From: Ignavibacteriales bacterium
GTDB taxonomy: Bacteria; Bacteroidota; Ignavibacteria; Ignavibacteriales; Ignavibacteriaceae
Assembly: GCA_020061465.1 (NCBI GenBank)
Contig: JAGUYG010000031.1
Coordinates: 1-64,000, forward strand
Direction of reading: 5' to 3'
Length of the DNA: 64,000 nucleotides
A model generated the notes under the pieces. It saw nothing but the letters and a program-made list of their open reading frames with translations. It made no database searches and was not told where the DNA came from. Positions 43,773-56,898 of this stretch are shown piece by piece. Position 1 is the stretch's first letter, and the number at the start of each line of letters is the position of its first letter. Both the position numbers and the translations under genes were made by a program.

Positions 43773-44387
43773 ATGGGCAATTCAAAACAAGAAGAATTAC
43801 ACAGAAACATTATTTATACTTTAGTTTTCGGAATCACCTGGGGATTCCTTGAAATTCTGTTAGGCAGCATGCTGTACAATTTCTCACTGATATTTAAGGG
43901 AATTATTATTTCATCTATTACCGTGTTAATATTGGTTAGCGTTAAGAGCTTTATTCTTTATAAATCTTCTTTGATATTCGTTGGAATAATTGCTGCGCTG
44001 CTGCGGGGTGCAGCCTCCGGCTTTATTATAACTAATGCGGTATTTGCCATCATAATTGAAGCTGTAATTGCAGAATTAATTTTTTCGGTGTGGAGTTATA
44101 AAAATATTACCGCAGTAATTTCGGGGAGCTTGATTGTTCTATATTCATATATCCACAGCTTAATATTCCACGGAAGTCTTCCGGCGGCATATATTAAATA
44201 TCTATACAGAACGACTGTCGAAAGTTTAATCAGTATTGAAATTTCGGATACGGTGTTAACCGCAGTTCTTATTGTGTATGGTGTTATTATTATTCTTATT
44301 GGAGCAACCGTGGGAAGATTAAGCTGGTTATTCAAAGAACACATATTTATTCCGGCAGTTTATAAGATTGAGAAGTACATAGCATGA
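43773..44387 (+). CDS. Uncharacterised multi-pass membrane protein (paralog of 53785)
   Basis: A 204-residue protein with about six hydrophobic segments and no recognised domain. It shares with 53785-54399 the opening EELHRN.../EELFRT..., a WGFLEILLGSMLY / WGIVEITIGTVLH block, GxIISxI, and the IIFEAL.AEIIFS-type motif (IIIEAVIAELIFS), so they are paralogs. It lacks heme or cluster ligands. The arrangement reminds of ECF-transporter S components, but I cannot assign a substrate. It follows the octaheme cytochrome by 58 bp, probably the last gene of that operon. Confidence 0.8.
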   Translation: MGNSKQEELHRNIIYTLVFGITWGFLEILLGSMLYNFSLIFKGIIISSITVLILVSVKSFILYKSSLIFVGIIAALLRGAASGFIITNAVFAIIIEAVIAELIFSVWSYKNITAVISGSLIVLYSYIHSLIFHGSLPAAYIKYLYRTTVESLISIEISDTVLTAVLIVYGVIIILIGATVGRLSWLFKEHIFIPAVYKIEKYIA

Positions 44388-48889: not shown

Positions 48890-49282
48890 ATGAAAAAAAC
48901 ACCCTATTTAATAACATCCTTAATTTTCGTCTCGCTGCTTGCTGCCGGATTCGTAACGAACAGTGGAAATAACTCTACGCAGCAACTACCTCCAAAAGAT
49001 AAACATCCTGAAGTGGATTGGTCGATTGGCTGTGCCGAATGCCATGAGGAAATGACTCCGAAAGTATTCCAGGAATGGAATGAAAGTCGTCACGGTCAGG
49101 TTAACTTCGGCTGTTATATTTGCCATGGTGATGGACAGGAAGTCTTCTATAAAAAGGGAAAAGACGAAGGTTGCCTGGGCTGTCATGCAGCTCAAGAAGT
49201 TAACTACAAGCAGCTAAAAGTAAAGTCATGCTTTGACTGCCATAACGGGCATACGCTTAAATTTCATAATGAAAATAAATAA
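48890..49282 (+). CDS. napM: Tetraheme cytochrome c (NapM-like)
   Basis: A small periplasmic cytochrome of 130 residues with an N-terminal signal/anchor (about 5-25) and four CxxCH sites: CAECH, CYICH, CLGCH, CFDCH. In Desulfovibrio the nap operon runs napC-napM-napA-napD-napG-napH, with NapM a tetraheme cytochrome; here the same order M-A-D-G-H follows, without napC. It probably carries electrons to NapA in place of NapB. The name NapM is by synteny and heme count. Confidence 0.8.
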   Translation: MKKTPYLITSLIFVSLLAAGFVTNSGNNSTQQLPPKDKHPEVDWSIGCAECHEEMTPKVFQEWNESRHGQVNFGCYICHGDGQEVFYKKGKDEGCLGCHAAQEVNYKQLKVKSCFDCHNGHTLKFHNENK

Positions 49283-49301
49283 GATGTCGGAGGAGAAATC
49301 A

Positions 49302-51566
49302 ATGTCAATTTCAAGAAGAGAATTTTTAAAAGCATCAGCTTTAACCGCAGCAGCAGCAGCAATAGGAGTAGAACCTCTATTGAACAGCAAAACGTTAGCG
49401 GCGGCTGCTCAGGAAGGAGTCATCTGGCATAAATCCGTCTGCCGTCTTTGCGGTGCTGGCTGCGGTGTGATGTTAGGCGTTAAAGACGGTAAACCCTTTG
49501 GTGTTAGAGGGGATAAAGAAAACACAATAAATGCCGGCATCCTTTGCGTTAAGGCATTTTATCTGCATAAGATGATTACCGCAAAAAACCGACTGCTATA
49601 TCCTATGGTGCGGAAGGACGGTAAATTGGTAAGAGCATCATGGGATGAAGCAATGAATTTGGTTGCTTCGAGATTTAAAGAGATACTGGAGAAACATGGA
49701 CCTGATGCCTTAGCTTATTACGGTTCAGGTCAAGCTCAAACGGAAGAAACGTATCTTGCAAACAGACTTTTCAAAGGCTTTATAGGTACAAACAACGTTG
49801 AAGGAAATCCACGCTTGTGTATGGCAAGCGCTGTTGGCGGCTACATTTCTTCTTTCGGTGCAGATGAACCGATAGGAACTTATGATGATATTGAACACTG
49901 TGAATTGTTTCTTTTAGTCGGTACTAATACTGCCGAGGCACATCCTGTTTTGTACGATAGAATAGTAAGCAGAAAAAAGAAACATCCTTCAACAAAAATT
50001 GTCATAATTGATCCACGGAAAACACCGACAAACAGAATTGCCGATTTGCATTTACAGGTAAAACCCGGTTACGATTTGGCAATTATGCATGCCATTGCAA
50101 GAATTTTAATTAAAGAAGGCTTTACAGACGAACAATTCATTAAAGATTCTGTTGTGTTTAGCGATGGTAAAGATCCGATTTCATACGACGACTACAAAAC
50201 GTTTCTCGAAAAATATACTCCCGAATATGCAGCCGAACAAGCAGGAATAAATCCTTCGGAAATAGTTCAAGCTGCAAGAATTTTTGGTCAATCTCCCACA
50301 GCTATGACGATGTGGACGATGGGAGTTAACCAACGCGTTGCCGGAGTTTTCCTGAATAATCTTATACATAACATTCATCTATTAACAGGAAAATTGGGAA
50401 AACCGGGATCCGATTCCTTCTCATTAACCGGACAGCCAAATGCATGCGGCGGCGTTCGGGAAGGCGGCGGTTTATGTCATTTACTTCCAGGTCACCGCTC
50501 TGTTGAAAATGAACAGCACCGGAAAGAAATTGCTGAAATATGGATGACAACACCGGAAAAGATTCAGCCTAAGCCGGGAAAACATACCATTGCAATGTTC
50601 GAGGGTGTTGCTAACGGCGATATAAAAGGATTATTTGTTCTTTGCACTAATCCAGCTCAATCTCTGCCTAATTTGAATAAATATCTTAAAGGAATGAGTG
50701 ATGTATTTCTCGTTATAACCGAATCATTCCATCCAACAGAAACTTCAAAAATTGCCGACGTAGTTTTACCAGTTGCTTTTTGGGGTGAAAAGGAAGGTGT
50801 TTACGGCTGTTCTGAAAGAAGATCGCAGCACCTTGCAAAAGCACTTAAACCAATGGGTGAAGCCCTCTGGGACGGTGATGTATTGATCGACCTTGCTAAG
50901 AGAATGGGTTACGGTGCATACTTCGAACACTTTAAAACTCCCGAAGATGTGTGGAATGAATATTTGAAAACTACAAAAGGAAAGGGTTTGGATTTAACCG
51001 GAGCACCTTACGAAAGGCTGAAAAAGGTTCGTGGTTTAAGATGGCCCGTTCCGAATGTGAACCATCCCGGTACCGGGCATCGATTTACCGAAGGCGATCC
51101 ATTATTCCCCAAGGATAAAGCAGGTAGTAGAAGAATGTACTTTTATGCAAAACCGGAAGGAAAAGCAGTGATCTTTGCTCGACCCGATAAGGGACCTGAA
51201 GAACCCACTTCTGCCGATTATCCGATAGCACTAACTACCGGACGCATTCTCGAACAATGGCATACGATGACGATGACAGGTCAGGTTCCCGAATTAGTGC
51301 GAGCTAATCCGAATCCTTATGTTGAAATTAATCCGGATGATGCAAAAGCTTGGGGTATCAGCAGCAGAGATAAAGTGAAGCTGACTACTAAACGCGGCTC
51401 ATTAACTGTCGAAGCCAAGGTTATCGATAGACCCCGCAAAGGTACTATCTTCTTGCCATGGCATTGGCCCGAGAGCTTAACTAATATTTTAACAATTGAC
51501 GCTGTCGATCCCGGTTCTAAAGAACCTGAATATAAAGTAGCAGCATGTAAAGTGGAGAAAGCATAA
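49302..51566 (+). CDS. napA: Periplasmic nitrate reductase catalytic subunit
   Basis: Molybdopterin bis-MGD enzyme reducing nitrate to nitrite in the periplasm. From the ATG at 49302 (GGAGGAG upstream) it has 754 residues. The Tat signal is SISRREFLKAS (2-12). The [4Fe-4S] ligands are Cys47, Cys50, Cys54 and Cys82, followed by the electron-transfer Lys84; the Mo ligand is Cys173 in NPRLCMASAVGGY. The size matches the monomeric Desulfovibrio-type NapA better than the 830-residue proteobacterial one. No napB gene is present. Substrate could be another oxyanion, but the napD/G/H context argues for nitrate. Confidence 0.9.
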   Translation: MSISRREFLKASALTAAAAAIGVEPLLNSKTLAAAAQEGVIWHKSVCRLCGAGCGVMLGVKDGKPFGVRGDKENTINAGILCVKAFYLHKMITAKNRLLYPMVRKDGKLVRASWDEAMNLVASRFKEILEKHGPDALAYYGSGQAQTEETYLANRLFKGFIGTNNVEGNPRLCMASAVGGYISSFGADEPIGTYDDIEHCELFLLVGTNTAEAHPVLYDRIVSRKKKHPSTKIVIIDPRKTPTNRIADLHLQVKPGYDLAIMHAIARILIKEGFTDEQFIKDSVVFSDGKDPISYDDYKTFLEKYTPEYAAEQAGINPSEIVQAARIFGQSPTAMTMWTMGVNQRVAGVFLNNLIHNIHLLTGKLGKPGSDSFSLTGQPNACGGVREGGGLCHLLPGHRSVENEQHRKEIAEIWMTTPEKIQPKPGKHTIAMFEGVANGDIKGLFVLCTNPAQSLPNLNKYLKGMSDVFLVITESFHPTETSKIADVVLPVAFWGEKEGVYGCSERRSQHLAKALKPMGEALWDGDVLIDLAKRMGYGAYFEHFKTPEDVWNEYLKTTKGKGLDLTGAPYERLKKVRGLRWPVPNVNHPGTGHRFTEGDPLFPKDKAGSRRMYFYAKPEGKAVIFARPDKGPEEPTSADYPIALTTGRILEQWHTMTMTGQVPELVRANPNPYVEINPDDAKAWGISSRDKVKLTTKRGSLTVEAKVIDRPRKGTIFLPWHWPESLTNILTIDAVDPGSKEPEYKVAACKVEKA

Positions 51567-51613
51567 CTTATTAATTTTTGACCCTGATAAAATGCTGTAT
51601 CGCACTCACAGCA

Positions 51614-51660
51614 GGGATTGCCTTCTTCTCTGCCTTGAAGGCAATCCCGATTATTTTTTT
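51614..51660 (+). terminator. Intrinsic terminator between napA and napD
   Basis: GGGATTGCCTTC (51614-51625) pairs perfectly with GAAGGCAATCCC (51637-51648), followed by TTATTTTTTT (51651-51660). A textbook rho-independent terminator inside the nap operon. As the napD ATG is only 14 bp beyond, it may let most transcripts end after napA and give less of NapD, G and H. Confidence 0.85.
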
Positions 51661-51673
51661 CGAGGATATTAAA

Positions 51674-51922
51674 ATGATTATAGCAAGTATGATAGTACGA
51701 ACTCAGGTTGATAAAGCTGAAGAAATAGCACTTCAGTTGAAAAGATTACCAAACGTATCAACGCACGGTGTTTACAAAGACGATAACATAATTGTCATAA
51801 TCGAAGCCGAAAGGGAAGAAGAGCTTGAGAGATTATCGCGTTATATAATGAACGAGTTCGAAGGTGTTCTGGGCACTTATCCAACCTTCATTTCATCTGA
51901 TGAAAATGTTTTGAATTTGTGA
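51674..51922 (+). CDS. napD: NapD-like Tat proofreading chaperone
   Basis: An 82-residue protein of NapD type, which binds the Tat signal of NapA during cofactor loading. The ferredoxin-like fold pattern is clear: MIIASMIVRTQVDKAEEIALQLKRL, then VSTHGVYKDDNIIVIIEA. An ORF start at 51578 would run the gene through the terminator; the ATG at 51674, with GAGGATATT upstream, gives the normal family length. Located between napA and napG as in other nap operons. Confidence 0.84.
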   Translation: MIIASMIVRTQVDKAEEIALQLKRLPNVSTHGVYKDDNIIVIIEAEREEELERLSRYIMNEFEGVLGTYPTFISSDENVLNL

Positions 51923-51951
51923 ATGAACTTTAAACTGAAAACAGCCTGATT

Positions 51952-52467
51952 GTGGTTTCATTTATTATTGAATTTGTTCGTGATTTAATTAGCGGTAAAT
52001 CTCCACTAAGACCCCCGGGTGCATTTCCTGAAAAGGAATTCTTAAAGAAGTGTATCAAGTGCAATAAGTGTGCGCAAATTTGTCCTTACTTTAGCATTCA
52101 AATGGCGCATATTGAGTACGGTAAAAGTATGGGCACACCTCTGATCTTTCCGAGAGAAGTTCCTTGTTACGTTTGCATGAAGTGTCCGCCAGTATGCCCA
52201 ACGGGCGCATTAAAAAACGACGTAGTAAATAAAGAAGATGTCCGGATGGGCATTGCAGTAATCAATGAAGAAACATGTCTGCCCTACATAGGAATAATTT
52301 GCCGGGCTTGCTTTGAAAATTGTCCCATCTTTAGAGAAGCAATAATTCTAGAAGATGAAATGTATCCGAAGGTAATTAAAGAAAAATGTATTGGCTGTGG
52401 AATATGCGAGAAGGTTTGTCCGATTGAAGGTTCAGCAATAATAATTGAAAGCGCTCATAACATATAA
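51952..52467 (+). CDS. napG: NapG-like four-cluster ferredoxin protein
   Basis: A 171-residue ferredoxin with four Cys motifs for [4Fe-4S] clusters: CIKCNKCAQICP, CYVCMKCPPVCP, a spaced CLPYIGIICRACFENCP, and CIGCGICEKVCP. This cluster pattern is that of NapG/MauM. Unlike the classic NapG, no twin-arginine signal is present at the N-terminus (MVSFIIEFVRDLISGK); it begins with an amphipathic hydrophobic segment. The start is a GTG at 51952. With NapH it is thought to move electrons from quinol to the NapA side. Confidence 0.85.
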   Translation: MVSFIIEFVRDLISGKSPLRPPGAFPEKEFLKKCIKCNKCAQICPYFSIQMAHIEYGKSMGTPLIFPREVPCYVCMKCPPVCPTGALKNDVVNKEDVRMGIAVINEETCLPYIGIICRACFENCPIFREAIILEDEMYPKVIKEKCIGCGICEKVCPIEGSAIIIESAHNI

Positions 52468-52526
52468 ACAAAAGTATTTTGCGATGCCTTTAATATTGTA
52501 GATAATTTTGAAAAAACGGAAGCACA

Positions 52527-53420
52527 TTGTTCGGCTTAAAGCAAAATAGTTTGTATTCGAATCTGAACCAGATCAGAAAATTTGTTCAGATATTTTCATT
52601 AATATTTTTAATTGCGGTGCCTGTTTTAATCTTATATGAAATTTGGTTCATCATCGGAAATTTATATTCTATCACTATCGGCGGACTCGATATTGTAGAT
52701 CCAGCTTCAGCATTGCAGACTATTCTTCTATCAAAGGAAGTTACAACAACCGTTCTTTTCGGTTTAATTGTTCCTATTGTGTTGGCTTTAGTTTTTGGAA
52801 AAGTATTTTGCTCATGGATGTGTCCTTATAACACTCTAACTGAATGGTTAACTGCTGTTTCGGCAAAGCTATTCAAGAAAAGAGCACGAAAGGCAAAACT
52901 GCAATTAGTAGATCGAAATCCTAATCCAATATTATATTGGAGTATTCTTGCGGCGATTTTGATTCTTTCATGGATGTTAGAGTTTCCGCTGGTTTTGTTT
53001 TTATCGGCGCCGGGAATAATATCGAGCGAAATTTCTCATGTAATTTTAGGAATGGGAATGGGTTTAGAACTACTAATTGTATTAGTAATAATTTCATTCG
53101 AAGCGTTAATATTCAAGAGATATTGGTGTAAATACGTTTGTCCTGTCGGTGCCGTATTATCTTTATTCCGGGTAAGAAAAACATTACGCGTTGCTTATGA
53201 TAAGGCTGTTTGCAATTGCGCCGGCGAATCAGAACCTTGTTCATATATTTGTCCTCTCCAATTATCGCCGAAACAGCCCTATCTTTATCCCTATTGCTTC
53301 AACTGCGGATTGTGTATTAAAATTTGCGAAAAATCAGGCAGCGGTGCGCTTTCATTCAAGTTTGATGAGAAAAAGATTACCGCTGAAATCTCCAATTCAA
53401 AAAAAAATTGTTGTGAATAA
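52527..53420 (+). CDS. napH: NapH-like membrane ferredoxin protein
   Basis: Membrane protein, 297 residues, with about four to five helices and two CxxxCP motifs (FCSWMCPYN and WCKYVCPVGA) at the membrane surface. The C-terminal ferredoxin part is CNCAGESEPCSYICP and CFNCGLCIKICEK. The start is a TTG at 52527. It closes the nap operon and partners with NapG. It is a family relative of 34353-35498, but shorter and with a different C-terminal part. Confidence 0.87.
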   Translation: MFGLKQNSLYSNLNQIRKFVQIFSLIFLIAVPVLILYEIWFIIGNLYSITIGGLDIVDPASALQTILLSKEVTTTVLFGLIVPIVLALVFGKVFCSWMCPYNTLTEWLTAVSAKLFKKRARKAKLQLVDRNPNPILYWSILAAILILSWMLEFPLVLFLSAPGIISSEISHVILGMGMGLELLIVLVIISFEALIFKRYWCKYVCPVGAVLSLFRVRKTLRVAYDKAVCNCAGESEPCSYICPLQLSPKQPYLYPYCFNCGLCIKICEKSGSGALSFKFDEKKITAEISNSKKNCCE

Positions 53421-53461
53421 AATTGAAATAACCATCAATTTATTATAGCGGTCAGAAATAG

Positions 53462-53478
53462 ATTCGATTTAATCGAAT
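53462..53478 (+). terminator. Hairpin after napH
   Basis: ATTCGAT (53462-53468) pairs with ATCGAAT (53472-53478), loop TTA. No T-run, so it is only a possible 3' structure of the nap transcript. Confidence 0.35.
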
Positions 53479-53626
53479 AGAATTTAAAGGACGACAATCA
53501 TTTGTTAAAATATTATAATCAAAGAAGGAAGGTACTACCAACAAATAATTAATCAGAAATAAAATAGACGTTATTATTATCTCCGAGCTTATATCTTTAG
53601 GGAAGAATTTTCAAGAAGAGAAAAAA

Positions 53627-53708
53627 TTTCCATATAGATGAAAGCCGATGGGTTTCAGATAAAATCTGACGCCTCCCGAGTCTCGCTTTAGGCGTGATGA
53701 ATTGGAAA
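53627..53708 (+). ncRNA. Structured leader RNA (riboswitch or attenuator candidate)
   Basis: The gap 53421-53784 holds a compact fold before the 53785 operon. A closing stem TTTCCA (53627-53632)/TGGAAA (53703-53708) encloses two perfect hairpins: TCAGAT (53655-53660)/ATCTGA (53664-53669), and ACGCCT (53669-53674)/AGGCGT (53690-53695), which share one base. Together with the terminator at 53739-53771 it looks like an RNA that controls transcription of the genes beyond. I cannot match it to a known riboswitch class. Confidence 0.5.
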
Positions 53709-53738
53709 GGAGAGAGGTTTTTACCTTATGTTAAATTT

Positions 53739-53771
53739 AAAACCCCCTCTGATTCGATGGGGTTTTTTTTT
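53739..53771 (+). terminator. Terminator in the leader of 53785
   Basis: AAAACCCC (53739-53746) pairs with GGGGTTTT (53759-53766), with extra pairs TC (53748-53749)/GA (53756-53757), then a run of nine T. It ends 13 bp before the ATG. Upstream AGAGGTTTT (53714-53722) can pair with the terminator's 5' side (AAAA and CCTCT), a possible antiterminator. Confidence 0.8.
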
Positions 53772-53784
53772 GTTAGAGTGAACA

Positions 53785-54399
53785 ATGATTAAAATTTTCA
53801 ACAGCAGTCCGACACAGGAAGAATTATTTAGAACAGCCGTATTCGGTGTATTGTGGGGGATAGTAGAAATTACTATCGGAACTGTTCTTCACTCTGCAAA
53901 AATTCCTTTTAGGGGAACCATTATTTCTCTAATAGTAGTGTGCCTCATTACCTGTGGAAGAAATTTTGCCGGTTATAGAGGAGCTACGTTAACAATGGGT
54001 GCAATTGCAGCAAGCCTAAAAATATTAGCCGGTACAGGATTCAATATTACGCCGTTTGCAGCAATTATTTTTGAAGCTCTAACAGCGGAAATTATTTTTA
54101 GCGCATTTGGTTACCGTAAAGTTTCTGCTTTATTGACGGGTGCCTTTGTAATGCTTTACACGCTAAGTCATGGCTTCATAATGCAGGGAATATTTTTAGG
54201 TTTCGACGTATATAAAATTTATGTGCGAATAATTCGAGAGTTGAGCAGCATCCTGCATATCGACGGATATCCCATACTAATGATCGCAATGGTAATCATT
54301 ATTTTTTACGCCGGTGCGGGTATGTTTTCAGCATTTATCGGACTGAAAATAGCAACAAGGACTAAAGAAATAATTTTAAGGATGGAAAATGAAATCTGA
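53785..54399 (+). CDS. Uncharacterised membrane protein under leader control (paralog of 43773)
   Basis: A 204-residue protein with about six hydrophobic segments. Motifs kept with the paralog at 43773-44387 are EELFRT, WGIVEITIGTVLH, RGTIISLI and FEALTAEIIFS. No known catalytic or cofactor site. The gene is first in a three-gene operon (11-bp overlap to 54389, ATGA overlap to the TonB receptor), and its leader has a terminator, so its expression likely depends on a metabolite or metal. A transporter S-component-like role is a guess. Confidence 0.8.
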   Translation: MIKIFNSSPTQEELFRTAVFGVLWGIVEITIGTVLHSAKIPFRGTIISLIVVCLITCGRNFAGYRGATLTMGAIAASLKILAGTGFNITPFAAIIFEALTAEIIFSAFGYRKVSALLTGAFVMLYTLSHGFIMQGIFLGFDVYKIYVRIIRELSSILHIDGYPILMIAMVIIIFYAGAGMFSAFIGLKIATRTKEIILRMENEI

Positions 54400-54955
54400 A
54401 AAAATTATATATCTCACCATAATTACGTTCGCAGTTATTCTGCCTGTCAAGTTTTACTTTTATTTCTTTATCGCAGCGCTTTTATTAATTCTGAATAAAG
54501 ACTTTAGAGCTTTTAAATTTGTAAGGAGTAAATCTTTTATCTTTTTATTAGTGCTGCTTTTATTAATTCATCCGTTATTGGGAGGCGAAAAAAATATTAG
54601 CATTTTAGGTATCAAGTATAGCTGCGATTCTTTTATAACGGGGCTGCAAATGATTATGCGAGCGGCAGTAATAATACCTTCAGTGAAACTTCTTTTTGGT
54701 AATTTGCATGGCAGCAATGTTAATAATTTTTGGAATAAGTTTGGTTTAACTTACTTTGATTCGACGTTTAATATGTCGAAAAATCTTATGCCGAATTTAA
54801 AAGATACGACCAATAATTATTTCGGGGGCATGAGTCTAAATGAAAAGAAGCAATTTCTTCTTAATCCCATAGAATTTATCGCAAGATTTTTAGCCGTTTT
54901 GTTAACTACACAAAATACGGCTGACAAAAATAATTATATGAAAGAATCATCATGA
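54389..54955 (+). CDS. Uncharacterised small membrane protein
   Basis: 188 residues with hydrophobic segments near 6-36 and 48-62 and a less hydrophobic second half (NFWNKFGLTYFDSTFNMSKN). I do not recognise it. It might be a degenerate T-component of an energy-coupling transporter, but the Ala-Arg-Gly motifs of EcfT are not visible. It overlaps both neighbours (11 bp and ATGA), so it is translated together with the membrane protein and the TonB receptor and is probably part of the same uptake system. Confidence 0.7.
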   Translation: MKSEKIIYLTIITFAVILPVKFYFYFFIAALLLILNKDFRAFKFVRSKSFIFLLVLLLLIHPLLGGEKNISILGIKYSCDSFITGLQMIMRAAVIIPSVKLLFGNLHGSNVNNFWNKFGLTYFDSTFNMSKNLMPNLKDTTNNYFGGMSLNEKKQFLLNPIEFIARFLAVLLTTQNTADKNNYMKESS

Positions 54956-56898
54956 AAAGAATAATATTACTTTTATTATTTCTGTTTATCCTCTTCAAAA
55001 TTTATGGACAGACAACCGACACTATCCCTGCTTATAATCTCGGGGAAGTTATAGTTACAGCAAAAAATGAAAATATAGTGAAGGCATCTTCAATAATTGA
55101 AGTTGATTTTGCTCAGATGCAAAGAAGCTTAGCTTCAACCGTTACCGATGCGATTAGCATGGAAGCAGGTATAAGAACGCAAGTAAATTCTAAAGGCGAA
55201 ATCCCTGTTTATATAAGAGGATTTAGTCAAAAACAAATTGCTGTTTTTATAGATGGTATACCCGTCTATTTCCCCTATGAAGGTGAACTGGATCTAAATC
55301 AAATTCCAACAGCATCGATTGAAAAGATAACCATCTCTAAAGGAATGCCTTCAATTTTATATGGACCAAATTCGATGGGCGGGACAGTCAATATAATTAC
55401 TCAAGAGAACAGAGAAGGATTTGGATTTGGGGCAAGCTTTCAAACAGGAAGTAAGCAAAGCATTTCGTTGAACACCAGAGGAGAATTCTTGAATTTGAAG
55501 TGGAATGTCGGTGGTCAATTCAACAAATCATCCGGTTTTTATTTACCAGGGAGTTTCAACAATACGGTGAACGAAGACGGTAATAGACGAGATAACAGCC
55601 ATTATGAAAATTTGGGTGGTTTTTTAAGATTAACGCATTCTCCTTCAAAGAATATTCATCTCTCATATTCGTTGTTCTTAACCGACAACTCAAGAGGAAT
55701 TCCACCTAATATTTATTCAATTAGACCTAGATACTGGAAATTTACAGAGTGGAAAAAATATTTACATAGCTTTGCTTTCAATGTATTCTTGGGGAAAAGC
55801 TTTGCAGTAAAAGGAAATTTGTTTTATGATAAATACCGTAATGTATTGGATTCCTATGATGATAATACTTATACAACCCAAACGTTAAAATCGGCATTTC
55901 ATTCAACGTATGACGATAACTCAAGAGGACTTAATCTAACGTCATTTATAAATCCGGATTTTTTCCCTTTAACAAAATTGACAATGCTATATAAAGCAGA
56001 TATTCATAGAGAGCAGGGAAATATCCAGCTTCCGTGGGGAGAATATAAAACTGAAACATTGACAATAGGTATCGAACAGGAGTTCAATCTAACCGATAAA
56101 CTGTTCGGTGTTACAGGTATTAGTTACGACCGTATGAATCCGCTTTTTGCCAACAATGCACCGCTTCGTAGTTCATGTTCGGTTCTTAACGGTCATGCTG
56201 GCTTAAACTATGAGATTAACAATTGGCTTAATTTTCATGCACATGCTTCGAAGAAAAGCAGATTTCCCACATTAAAAGAATTTTATTCTGAAGTATTAGG
56301 GCGGAACATCGCTAATCCTGATCTGTCAGTAGAAAAAAGTATGAATTATGAGGTTGGTTTTAAGATTGACATTAAAACCGAAAACCCGCTTAAATTAATT
56401 TTTTTCTTCAGCGATGTAAAAGATATGATTCAATTATTAAATCTTCCTGATGGTATAAGGCAGTTTCAAAATCTCGGAAAAGTTCAGCTTGCCGGTTTCG
56501 AAACGGAAGTAGGATTAGATGCCTCTATCTTTGATTCGAAAATAAATTACACCTTTCTCTCAGCAAAAAATTTATCTGTAAATGCTATAAACCGGATTCT
56601 TGACAACCGTCCTAAGCATGTATTGAATATAATTAACTCAAAGAAATATCCCCCCGGATTTGAATGGATAATCGAATCTTCCTTCGTTAATTCAAGATAC
56701 AGCAGCGATGGTGATACGGGGGAATTCATCAAAATGCCCGATTATTTTTTATTAAATGTAAAATTATCACAAAAATTCTTTGAACAATATTATTTAGCCG
56801 CGGGAATAACCAATATTTTAGGTAAGTATTATGAAAGCGAATACGGCTTTCCTCAACCGGGCAGGGAGTATATTTTGCAATTAGGAATAAGTTTATGA
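54952..56898 (+). CDS. TonB-dependent outer-membrane receptor
   Basis: A 648-residue receptor. Signal peptide (1-19), a TonB-box-like stretch LGEVIVTA, a plug domain with IRGFSQKQIAVFIDGIPVY and ISKGMPSILYGPNSMGGTVNIIT, and a 22-strand-type barrel ending QLGISL. The substrate is not readable; siderophore, cobalamin or metal chelates are typical. Its coupling to two inner-membrane proteins behind a terminator-controlled leader suggests regulated uptake of a scarce nutrient, perhaps a metal needed by the nearby heme- and molybdenum-enzymes (inference). Confidence 0.92.
   Translation: MKRIILLLLFLFILFKIYGQTTDTIPAYNLGEVIVTAKNENIVKASSIIEVDFAQMQRSLASTVTDAISMEAGIRTQVNSKGEIPVYIRGFSQKQIAVFIDGIPVYFPYEGELDLNQIPTASIEKITISKGMPSILYGPNSMGGTVNIITQENREGFGFGASFQTGSKQSISLNTRGEFLNLKWNVGGQFNKSSGFYLPGSFNNTVNEDGNRRDNSHYENLGGFLRLTHSPSKNIHLSYSLFLTDNSRGIPPNIYSIRPRYWKFTEWKKYLHSFAFNVFLGKSFAVKGNLFYDKYRNVLDSYDDNTYTTQTLKSAFHSTYDDNSRGLNLTSFINPDFFPLTKLTMLYKADIHREQGNIQLPWGEYKTETLTIGIEQEFNLTDKLFGVTGISYDRMNPLFANNAPLRSSCSVLNGHAGLNYEINNWLNFHAHASKKSRFPTLKEFYSEVLGRNIANPDLSVEKSMNYEVGFKIDIKTENPLKLIFFFSDVKDMIQLLNLPDGIRQFQNLGKVQLAGFETEVGLDASIFDSKINYTFLSAKNLSVNAINRILDNRPKHVLNIINSKKYPPGFEWIIESSFVNSRYSSDGDTGEFIKMPDYFLLNVKLSQKFFEQYYLAAGITNILGKYYESEYGFPQPGREYILQLGISL

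Follow-up and report, generated by a model that had tools for sequence, protein, structure and literature searches.

Moco (Mo-molybdopterin) is labile, and the usual assumption, to our knowledge, is that any bacterium using it also makes it. Riboswitches of the Moco/Tuco family (Rfam RF01055) precede genes for Moco biosynthesis, molybdate transporters and Moco enzymes according to PMC2408646, and the word TonB is absent from its main text. In Caldithrix abyssi, from another phylum than the bacterium studied here, a Moco RNA likewise precedes Moco genes and a predicted transporter; that transporter is a predicted MFS molybdate permease within a Moco biosynthesis locus (PMC5317091), unlike the one described below. 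The nematode C. elegans takes Moco from its diet by transport mechanisms given as unknown (PMC9793310), and a 2025 paper suggests that some type 11 secretion outer-membrane proteins may act in cobalamin or molybdopterin uptake (PMC12282271). Among the matches listed in the open-access literature (subscription papers and preprints lie outside this search), neither a bacterial importer of Moco or molybdopterin nor a Moco riboswitch on a TonB receptor is described.

Here, we describe a locus of an Ignavibacteriales bacterium, found in a stretch of 64,000 nucleotides (contig JAGUYG010000031.1, positions 1 to 64,000) that we call the window. Our computational analysis covers the family of the leader RNA, its terminator, the folds of the S and T proteins, the conservation of the operon and the biosynthesis genes missing from its carriers, and from these we infer the ligand, the OFF logic, the substrate and the energy source. 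The leader RNA class is already known, and an S-T-receptor operon under a Moco riboswitch is the new part. The leader shares the core junctions, P1, P2, P4, P5 and the terminator platform with RF01055 as presented in PMC2408646, but lacks P3, the GAAA tetraloop and the tetraloop receptor, and controls an ECF/TonB uptake operon. The window and its relatives share with ECF transporters the S fold (5edl) and an EcfT-like partner, and relatives in Chloroflexi add a paired ABC ATPase in the locus, whereas no paired ABC ATPases were found in the window operon (window ORFs, Pfam) and many relatives have NTPase_1 fused to S-T. The receptor shares a plug, a barrel and riboswitch-controlled, vitamin-type uptake with BtuB-type TonB vitamin receptors, but scores far below the BtuB model cut-off and is linked to a Moco RNA.

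We consider it fairly likely that a Moco-family OFF riboswitch here controls an importer spanning two membranes, whose substrate would most likely be Moco itself, with metal-free molybdopterin as the second choice; the operon probably imports ready-made cofactor for bacteria that are unable to make it. The operon and its genomic surroundings together build a strong case, open to testing, for a Moco salvage system in bacteria, with Moco as the presumed substrate.

The uptake operon and its conservation

The genes around the leader are as follows.

49233..53420, + strand: upstream neighbours, a NapA-like molybdoenzyme, a NapD-sized protein, NapG and NapH (Pfam, NCBIfam)
53785..54399, + strand: ECF-type S component, 204 aa (structure match, weak PF09819)
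54389..54955, + strand: EcfT/CbiQ-like transmembrane coupling protein, 188 aa (hhalign and structure rows)
54952..56898, + strand: TonB-dependent receptor, 648 aa (PF00593 E 7e-29, PF07715 E 1e-19)

The original prediction had named two unknown membrane proteins and a TonB receptor. The receptor stands as named, with plug and beta-barrel (PF07715, PF00593) both over cut-off; its best NCBIfam match is the B12 receptor, at 133 of 599.7 bits and far below cut-off. The membrane proteins can now be identified as ECF S and T. The first, to judge from its predicted structure, has the fold of an ECF S component: its AlphaFold2 model (pLDDT 84) finds 5edl, an ECF S component, as its best PDB match (Z 16.1, rmsd 3.9, 170 aligned residues). 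The next S components score Z 10.5 and 9.2 and unrelated methane monooxygenase subunits reach 11.9; because these subunits outscore the other S components, the margin of 5edl matters. Foldseek with the same model also ranks an S component first (E 8.4e-3), with no match at E 0.001 or better. It was only through fold comparison, and not through a sequence profile, that ECF S components were found: the PF09819 match is weak and below cut-off, and the S profile has no match up to E 1 among the sequences of solved structures. The second protein, which has no Pfam match of its own, is an EcfT-like coupling protein. It aligns by hhalign to an alignment of Chloroflexi T proteins (96.7%, E 3.5e-10), one member of which (L115) matches CbiQ PF02361 with E 7.5e-12, and EcfT/CbiQ occupies all ten best structural rows for its low-confidence model (Z 6.8-8.6).

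The upstream Nap models score below their NCBIfam cut-offs, and NapD is named by position and size alone; the nap gene order is the same in several relatives. At 43773-44387 the window has another S-component gene, a paralogue with 38% identity across the matched part and no adjoining T gene, by eye in an apparent Rieske, cytochrome b and cytochrome c cluster. Comparable S genes that stand alone, ~200 aa long, occur in G015, G028, G047, G054, G084 and G087. A plasmid search for DNA similar to the window region gave no match.

An RF01055 search of 97 related genomes found 24 places in 23 genomes, 21 of which have a match over cut-off. Eight of these places, the window included, precede an operon of the S-T-receptor type. 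The other 16 comprise 15 with a MoaA match within 4 kb downstream and one (G064) with MoeA there. Gene linkage, a check proposed in the original prediction, is thus strong, with the same RNA before the same operon in seven relatives, and the linkage to Moco genes by which RF01055 is recognised is present as well, as nap genes adjoin the RNA here and in several relatives. The order RNA-S-T-receptor is kept in G000 (the window's own genome), G015, G028, G047, G054, G057, G087, L107 and L109, and nap genes lie upstream of all nine operons except that of G057. In G023, S, T and NTPase_1 are fused into a protein of 579 residues before the receptor; a separate NTPase_1-like gene lies 3' of the receptor in G015, G028, G057 and L107; and in L112 the contig ends after the Moco RNA and S. 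The riboswitch-S unit therefore has 11 carriers, i.e. eight among the 97 relatives plus L107, L109 and L112.

The S/T family extends well beyond these operons. Among 18 regions that we fetched, chosen partly for prior S, NTPase_1 or MobA matches so that clustering counts are biased, 13 hold an S-T fusion of 351-397 residues, with the CMD-family gene A1 adjoining in nine; the region as a whole includes NTPase_1 in 10 and a MobA-like gene in 10. A1 also heads Moco operons. In G005 (L092:6642-7715), NTPase_1 and MobA-like domains form one protein directly after the S-T protein, and contig C4 of G000 carries a further cluster with an S-T fusion. No Moco RNA was found at E 0.1 in the 13 fusion regions, and the single weak match in L088-L105 lies in L095, before A1-MoeA-MobA. 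Records from Bacteroidota and Elusimicrobia often show S, T and NTPase_1 joined in a single protein of ~570 residues, sometimes ~400, and the flavobacterial locus L163 has in a row a receptor, DUF364, S-T-NTPase_1, MoeA and a MoCF/MOSC protein.

We counted the neighbours of the S family in L118-L185 (L128, with no S frame, was dropped), taking at most two frames on the same strand that are 100 aa or longer and lie no more than 1.5 kb away, with those of the S family excluded, and as controls 114 of 133 frames more than 4.5 kb away. MobA-like proteins and DUF364 each account for 14 of 114 neighbours versus at most 2 of 114 distant controls, a bound set by the lowest count, 2, among the 25 families listed. 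TonB plug domains number six among neighbours and two among controls, and PF02579 is also found among the neighbours.

The Chloroflexi loci L114-L117, L120 and L122, partly cut or obscured in the frame lists, together hold, when pieced together, a Moco RNA, NTPase_1 (L116, L117, L120 and L122), a double ABC ATPase, S, a PF00174 lipoprotein, CbiQ and FmdE/MobB, and are an ECF transporter set in a molybdopterin context; in L115, Pfam finds the ABC pair, the PF00174 protein, CbiQ and FmdE-MobB. Small lipoprotein-like proteins follow S at L115:8721-9182, L120:8680-9132 and L122:8542-9072. PF00174, the oxidoreductase molybdopterin-binding fold, passes its cut-off in L115 and in two proteins from the neighbour scan, and the Chloroflexi lipoprotein-like proteins are possible extracellular Moco binders.

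Missing biosynthesis genes and the proposed substrate

Nine of the 11 carriers show neither MoaA (PF06463, threshold E 1e-8) nor MoaC (threshold E 1e-6). MoaA went unfound in G000, G015, G047, G054, G057 and G087 in the search of the 97 relatives and in the genomes of L107, L109 and L112, and MoaC went unfound in all nine. MoeA was not found in G000, G015, G054 and G057 in the same 97 genomes. The window's genome is rated 100% complete and has three matches to PF01568, taken as the mark of a molybdoenzyme, one of them the window's NapA-like protein.

The pattern is wider than the carriers. Of 48 relatives with PF01568, 25 have MoaC, all of them with MoeA; MoaA is absent from all of the 23 without MoaC and MoeA from 20 of them, and each of the 23 retains a MobA-like gene (that of G033 with a weak match, 6e-8). 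We say 'MobA-like' because none of the 97 relatives, and one of 14 controls, passes the TIGR02665 (MobA) cut-off. Loss of all but the last step is the pattern expected from import of finished Mo-molybdopterin. The S family, searched by profile in these 48 relatives and in 32 of the 49 without PF01568, is present in 20 of the 23 MoaC-less genomes (no match in G014, G024 and G064) and in 13 of the 25 MoaC-positive ones (Fisher p 0.0097); the relatives share ancestry, so such tests are not independent. For the riboswitch-operon type alone, the counts of 6 of 23 versus 2 of 25 are not significant (p 0.098).

We take MoaC as the cleaner marker because PF06463 at 1e-8 mixes full MoaA with proteins of mostly 266-272 aa, some barely within the threshold. 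The MoaA search covered 50 genomes, selected among those to which the 80 loci with S relatives belong, and the MoaC search 80 genomes (the 48 with PF01568 and 32 of those 50). The 50 genomes comprise 8 with full MoaA, 19 with a mostly short MoaA-like protein and 23 with none. Among the 20 MoaA-less genomes that are not carriers, six have MoaC (G102, G106, G112, G117, G138 and G144), and all six Chloroflexi genomes have MoaA or MoaC. The mostly 266-272 aa proteins of G043, G045, G085, G090 and G093 have a partial MoaA C-terminal domain and lie near MoeA and a ModB-like permease below cut-off.

In our preferred reading, the substrate would pass the outer membrane through the TonB receptor and the inner membrane through the ECF S component and its EcfT partner. 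Energy for the inner-membrane step would come from the associated NTPase_1 protein or from an ATPase whose gene lies elsewhere. The salvaged cofactor would then be completed by MobA to the guanine dinucleotide needed by NapA and NarG. We put at about even the further proposal that salvage of Mo-molybdopterin lets bacteria without MoaA, MoaC and MoeA run nitrate reductases with MobA alone, on cofactor from their neighbours, and that the S-T-NTPase_1 fusions in Bacteroidota and Elusimicrobia and the full ECF set in Chloroflexi act likewise. Points against an importer of this kind are that the carriers G023 and G028 keep MoaA, MoaC and MoeA and that the operon has no ABC ATPase; we know of no NTPase_1 that drives ECF transport, and Moco is not among the S-component substrates known to us. 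If the reading is true, bacteria would share Moco as they share B12, these Ignavibacteria would need cofactor donors for nitrate respiration, and S, T, NTPase_1, the receptor and the PF00174 lipoprotein would be candidate genes for Moco transport. The riboswitch would then hint at the function of an S family to which sequence by itself assigns no substrate.

It is also conceivable, although improbable, that molybdate or tungstate, possibly complexed with a metallophore, is what the operon imports, and that the Moco riboswitch regulates it as it does modABC elsewhere. TonB receptors commonly take metallophores, and ModB, over cut-off in nine of the 97 genomes with most matches below, passes in G023 and is missing at that level from the other seven of the eight carriers among the relatives. 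The metal alone, however, cannot yield Moco in cells lacking MoaA and MoaC, and four carriers lack MoeA too; what has been kept, and is linked, is a MobA-like enzyme, and the substrate of MobA is finished Moco; and S components mostly carry vitamins or metal cations. Molybdate transporters do follow Moco RNAs in other bacteria, according to PMC2408646. A separate candidate molybdate importer is a 174-aa protein, by eye resembling half a chromate transporter, that is encoded by the second gene of type-A Moco biosynthesis operons, e.g. at frame 456-980 of L061.

We think it rather unlikely that the importer carries another pterin, a flavin, a corrinoid or a metal for nitrate respiration, with the riboswitch tying uptake to molybdoenzyme demand. 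The sequence of an S component does not predict its substrate, the receptor is nearest to a B12 receptor in NCBIfam, and the S family occurs in 17 of the 32 searched relatives without PF01568; against this stand the MobA-like, MobB, PF00174 and PF02579 neighbours across phyla and the NTPase_1-MobA fusion of G005.

Slightly less probable again is import of a metal-free precursor (molybdopterin or cyclic pyranopterin monophosphate) to which molybdenum is added inside. This would suit G047 and G087, which keep A1, MoeA and MobA-like genes side by side without MoaA or MoaC, and the position of MoeA in the L163 row. It sits badly with the four carriers that have no MoeA match and, as a weak point, with MoaE, found in G023 only among the eight carriers in the relatives and missing from most MoaA-positive relatives. 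We rejected MoaE as a marker of auxotrophy, as it occurs in only eight of the 97 relatives, compared with 35 that show a MoaA match. In some genomes (e.g. G019, G028 and G056) a Moco operon includes MoaA and MoaC, yet no MoaE is found genome-wide at E 1e-6; such genomes may have another molybdopterin synthase.

The leader RNA and its expression platform

The original prediction placed a closed multi-hairpin fold and a terminator in 53627-53784 and read them as a transcription-terminating riboswitch or attenuator of an uptake operon, belonging either to an undescribed RNA class or to a known one that had gone unrecognised. The layout is supported, and so is the second option. The Rfam covariance search that it had proposed, run with an E-value threshold on 53480-53830, gives RF01055 as the best match at 53569-53728 (+), with 34.2 bits (E 1.4e-6) and all 135 model positions covered; the remaining 13 matches have E 0.007 or worse. 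The score is below the gathering threshold of 36 bits, and Rfam at gathering scores has no match in the whole window, cobalamin riboswitches included. On lineage evidence, drawn from sequence comparison, the leader is a diverged RF01055 member, because all seven same-operon leaders in relatives pass RF01055 (53.1-78.5 bits). The elements of the leader are the following.

53491..53519, + strand: promoter-like site ACGACA-17-TATAAT, candidate leader start (consensus match, 10/12)
53577..53716, + strand: Moco/Tuco riboswitch aptamer with flanks (RF01055 match, lineage model, unconstrained fold)
53580-53584 / 53709-53713, + strand: P1 (alignment of relatives, energy fold)
53587..53645, + strand: P2 with a long apical extension (model alignments and predicted pairs; receptor motif (CTAA...) altered)
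53650..53674, + strand: P4 (model alignments and fold; loop AAA in place of GAAA tetraloop)
53675..53705, + strand: P5 (model register 53675-53676 / 53704-53705)
53713..53722, + strand: putative antiterminator strand (duplex with the terminator 5' arm; overlaps P1 by one base)
53739..53771, + strand: intrinsic terminator, stem 53739-53766 and T tail (-11.5 kcal/mol)

The promoter candidate is weak, since such matches are about twice as numerous as expected in 52000-55000. The unconstrained fold of 53577-53784 gives P1, P2, P4, P5 and the terminator, with P5 one base off the model register (53676-53679/53702-53705), and alignments and fold agree on the conserved RF01055 core with these four stems. 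The interval of the original prediction misses the 5' half of the aptamer, which starts 50 bases upstream of it; the conserved CTCCGAGC that opens the aptamer at 53581 lies outside. The closed fold proposed for 53627-53708 differs because the 5' strand was left out. It is the minimum-energy fold of 53620-53715 alone but does not exceed chance expectation (z -1.25; 24 of 200 shuffles fold as well), and its four hairpins give way to the Moco fold as the minimum-energy structure once the leader from 53577 is included. Its TCAGAT/ATCTGA hairpin is real and is P4, and two others are artefacts.

A GNRA tetraloop on P4 and a receptor in P2, by which RF01055 is recognised, are both lacking in the window, and the shortfall against the RF01055 cut-off goes with this loss. 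The pair is not universal in the family, since one or both are absent from a few members in PMC2408646. The P4 loop is AAA in the window and GAAA in the other 31 of 32 leaders (26 by script and 5, where the script was mis-anchored, by eye); the CTAA receptor motif was not found in P2 of the window leader, nor in L107, G023 and L114. Nap enzymes are normally molybdenum enzymes. P3, whose absence is a trait of the Tuco subtype, is missing in the window RNA, beside neighbours of the molybdenum type, and likewise in most copies from the window's order; for Moco RNAs without P3, PMC2408646 proposes Tuco, the tungsten form, as the ligand.

These changes could mean that the window RNA is a decaying copy that has lost ligand binding, leaving the operon constitutive or permanently attenuated. 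The copy is one of two below cut-off and ranks second from the bottom by RF01055 score among the 24 places, its tetraloop and receptor are both altered, and its antiterminator is weak. We nevertheless hold decay to be very unlikely: the core junction bases are kept, so are P1, P4, P5 and the terminator in full, and the loop has changed jointly with the receptor, as the two have been lost together in the few exceptional Moco RNAs noted in PMC2408646.

Covariation in relatives, another check named in the original prediction, is strong. We aligned 19 relatives, window excluded (18 from the window's order and one from Chloroflexi), and scored P1, P4 and P5, leaving out P2. Paired cells make up 95.9% versus 78.8% in shuffles, and the covariation score is 0.494 versus 0.171 in shuffles and at most 0.072 when the alignment is slid. 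Ten of the 18 pairs examined changed on both sides, a number that is unexceptional alone (66 of 500 shuffles reach the same). Most covariation lies in P4; the outer, closing pair of P5 swaps C-G and G-C among relatives; and P1 hardly varies, its CTCC/GGAG being unchanged in 19 of 19. A covariance model of these 19 RNAs (R1), built without the window, gives the window 61.7 bits (E 7e-12 in 1.07 Mb); all 15 of the 19 that were scanned with RF01055 pass its cut-off. Given the full-length RF01055 match and this score, an undescribed RNA class is refuted and has next to no probability, the missing Rfam match at gathering score being what had spoken for it. R1 also finds Moco RNAs in 16 of the 80 loci holding S relatives. 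Nine of these are R1 members or copies of members, and the other seven are independent (five Chloroflexi, one Chlorobiaceae and one Bacteroidetes record; weakest E 0.005).

The near-perfect terminator of the original prediction is confirmed at 53739-53771: its end lies 13 nt upstream of the ATG at 53785, and its strength is reached by one of 300 dinucleotide shuffles of 53714-53784. A generic pattern scan does not list it, probably because its loop is longer than the scan permits. A terminator-like hairpin occurs in 12 of 13 examined leaders of the S-T-receptor operon type. It lies 18-45 nt after P1 in 10 of the 11 leaders that come from the window's order, and 92 and 63 nt after P1 in L178 and L183, outside that order; in the G023 leader the script recognised none.

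With ample Moco, the aptamer would bind it, P1 would close, the terminator would form and the operon would be off; when Moco is scarce, the freed P1 3' strand and the next bases would pair with the terminator 5' arm, and the operon would be read. OFF with ligand is the logic expected for the window leader by analogy with the E. coli Moco riboswitch, for which it has been measured (PMC2408646). The original prediction proposed an antiterminator formed by AGAGGTTTT. Its pairing with the terminator 5' arm is possible, AGAGG at 53713-53717 with CCTCT at 53746-53750 plus T/A pairs, but weak: the duplex has -9.7 kcal/mol versus a shuffled mean of -6.1, and 10% of shuffles are as good. The terminated leader is favoured by 10.5 kcal/mol over the antiterminated one, in which five pairs were fixed by our own choice, so any switching must be kinetic. 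The antiterminator is stronger than the window's in seven of 10 leaders. In six of the 10, TCTCC in the terminator loop can pair with GGAGA of P1, a direct competition, with duplex energies matched by 0.4-1.4% of shuffles; the corresponding values are 2.2% for G015, 12% for L183, 18% for L107, 19% for G028 and 70% for L178.

Two further Moco RNA settings were observed. G028 has two Moco RNAs ~21 kb apart on one contig, before a biosynthesis and an uptake operon (L061, L068). In L067, from a genome with no MoaA or MoaC match, a Moco RNA precedes a CMD-family-sized gene, MoeA and a MobA-like gene.
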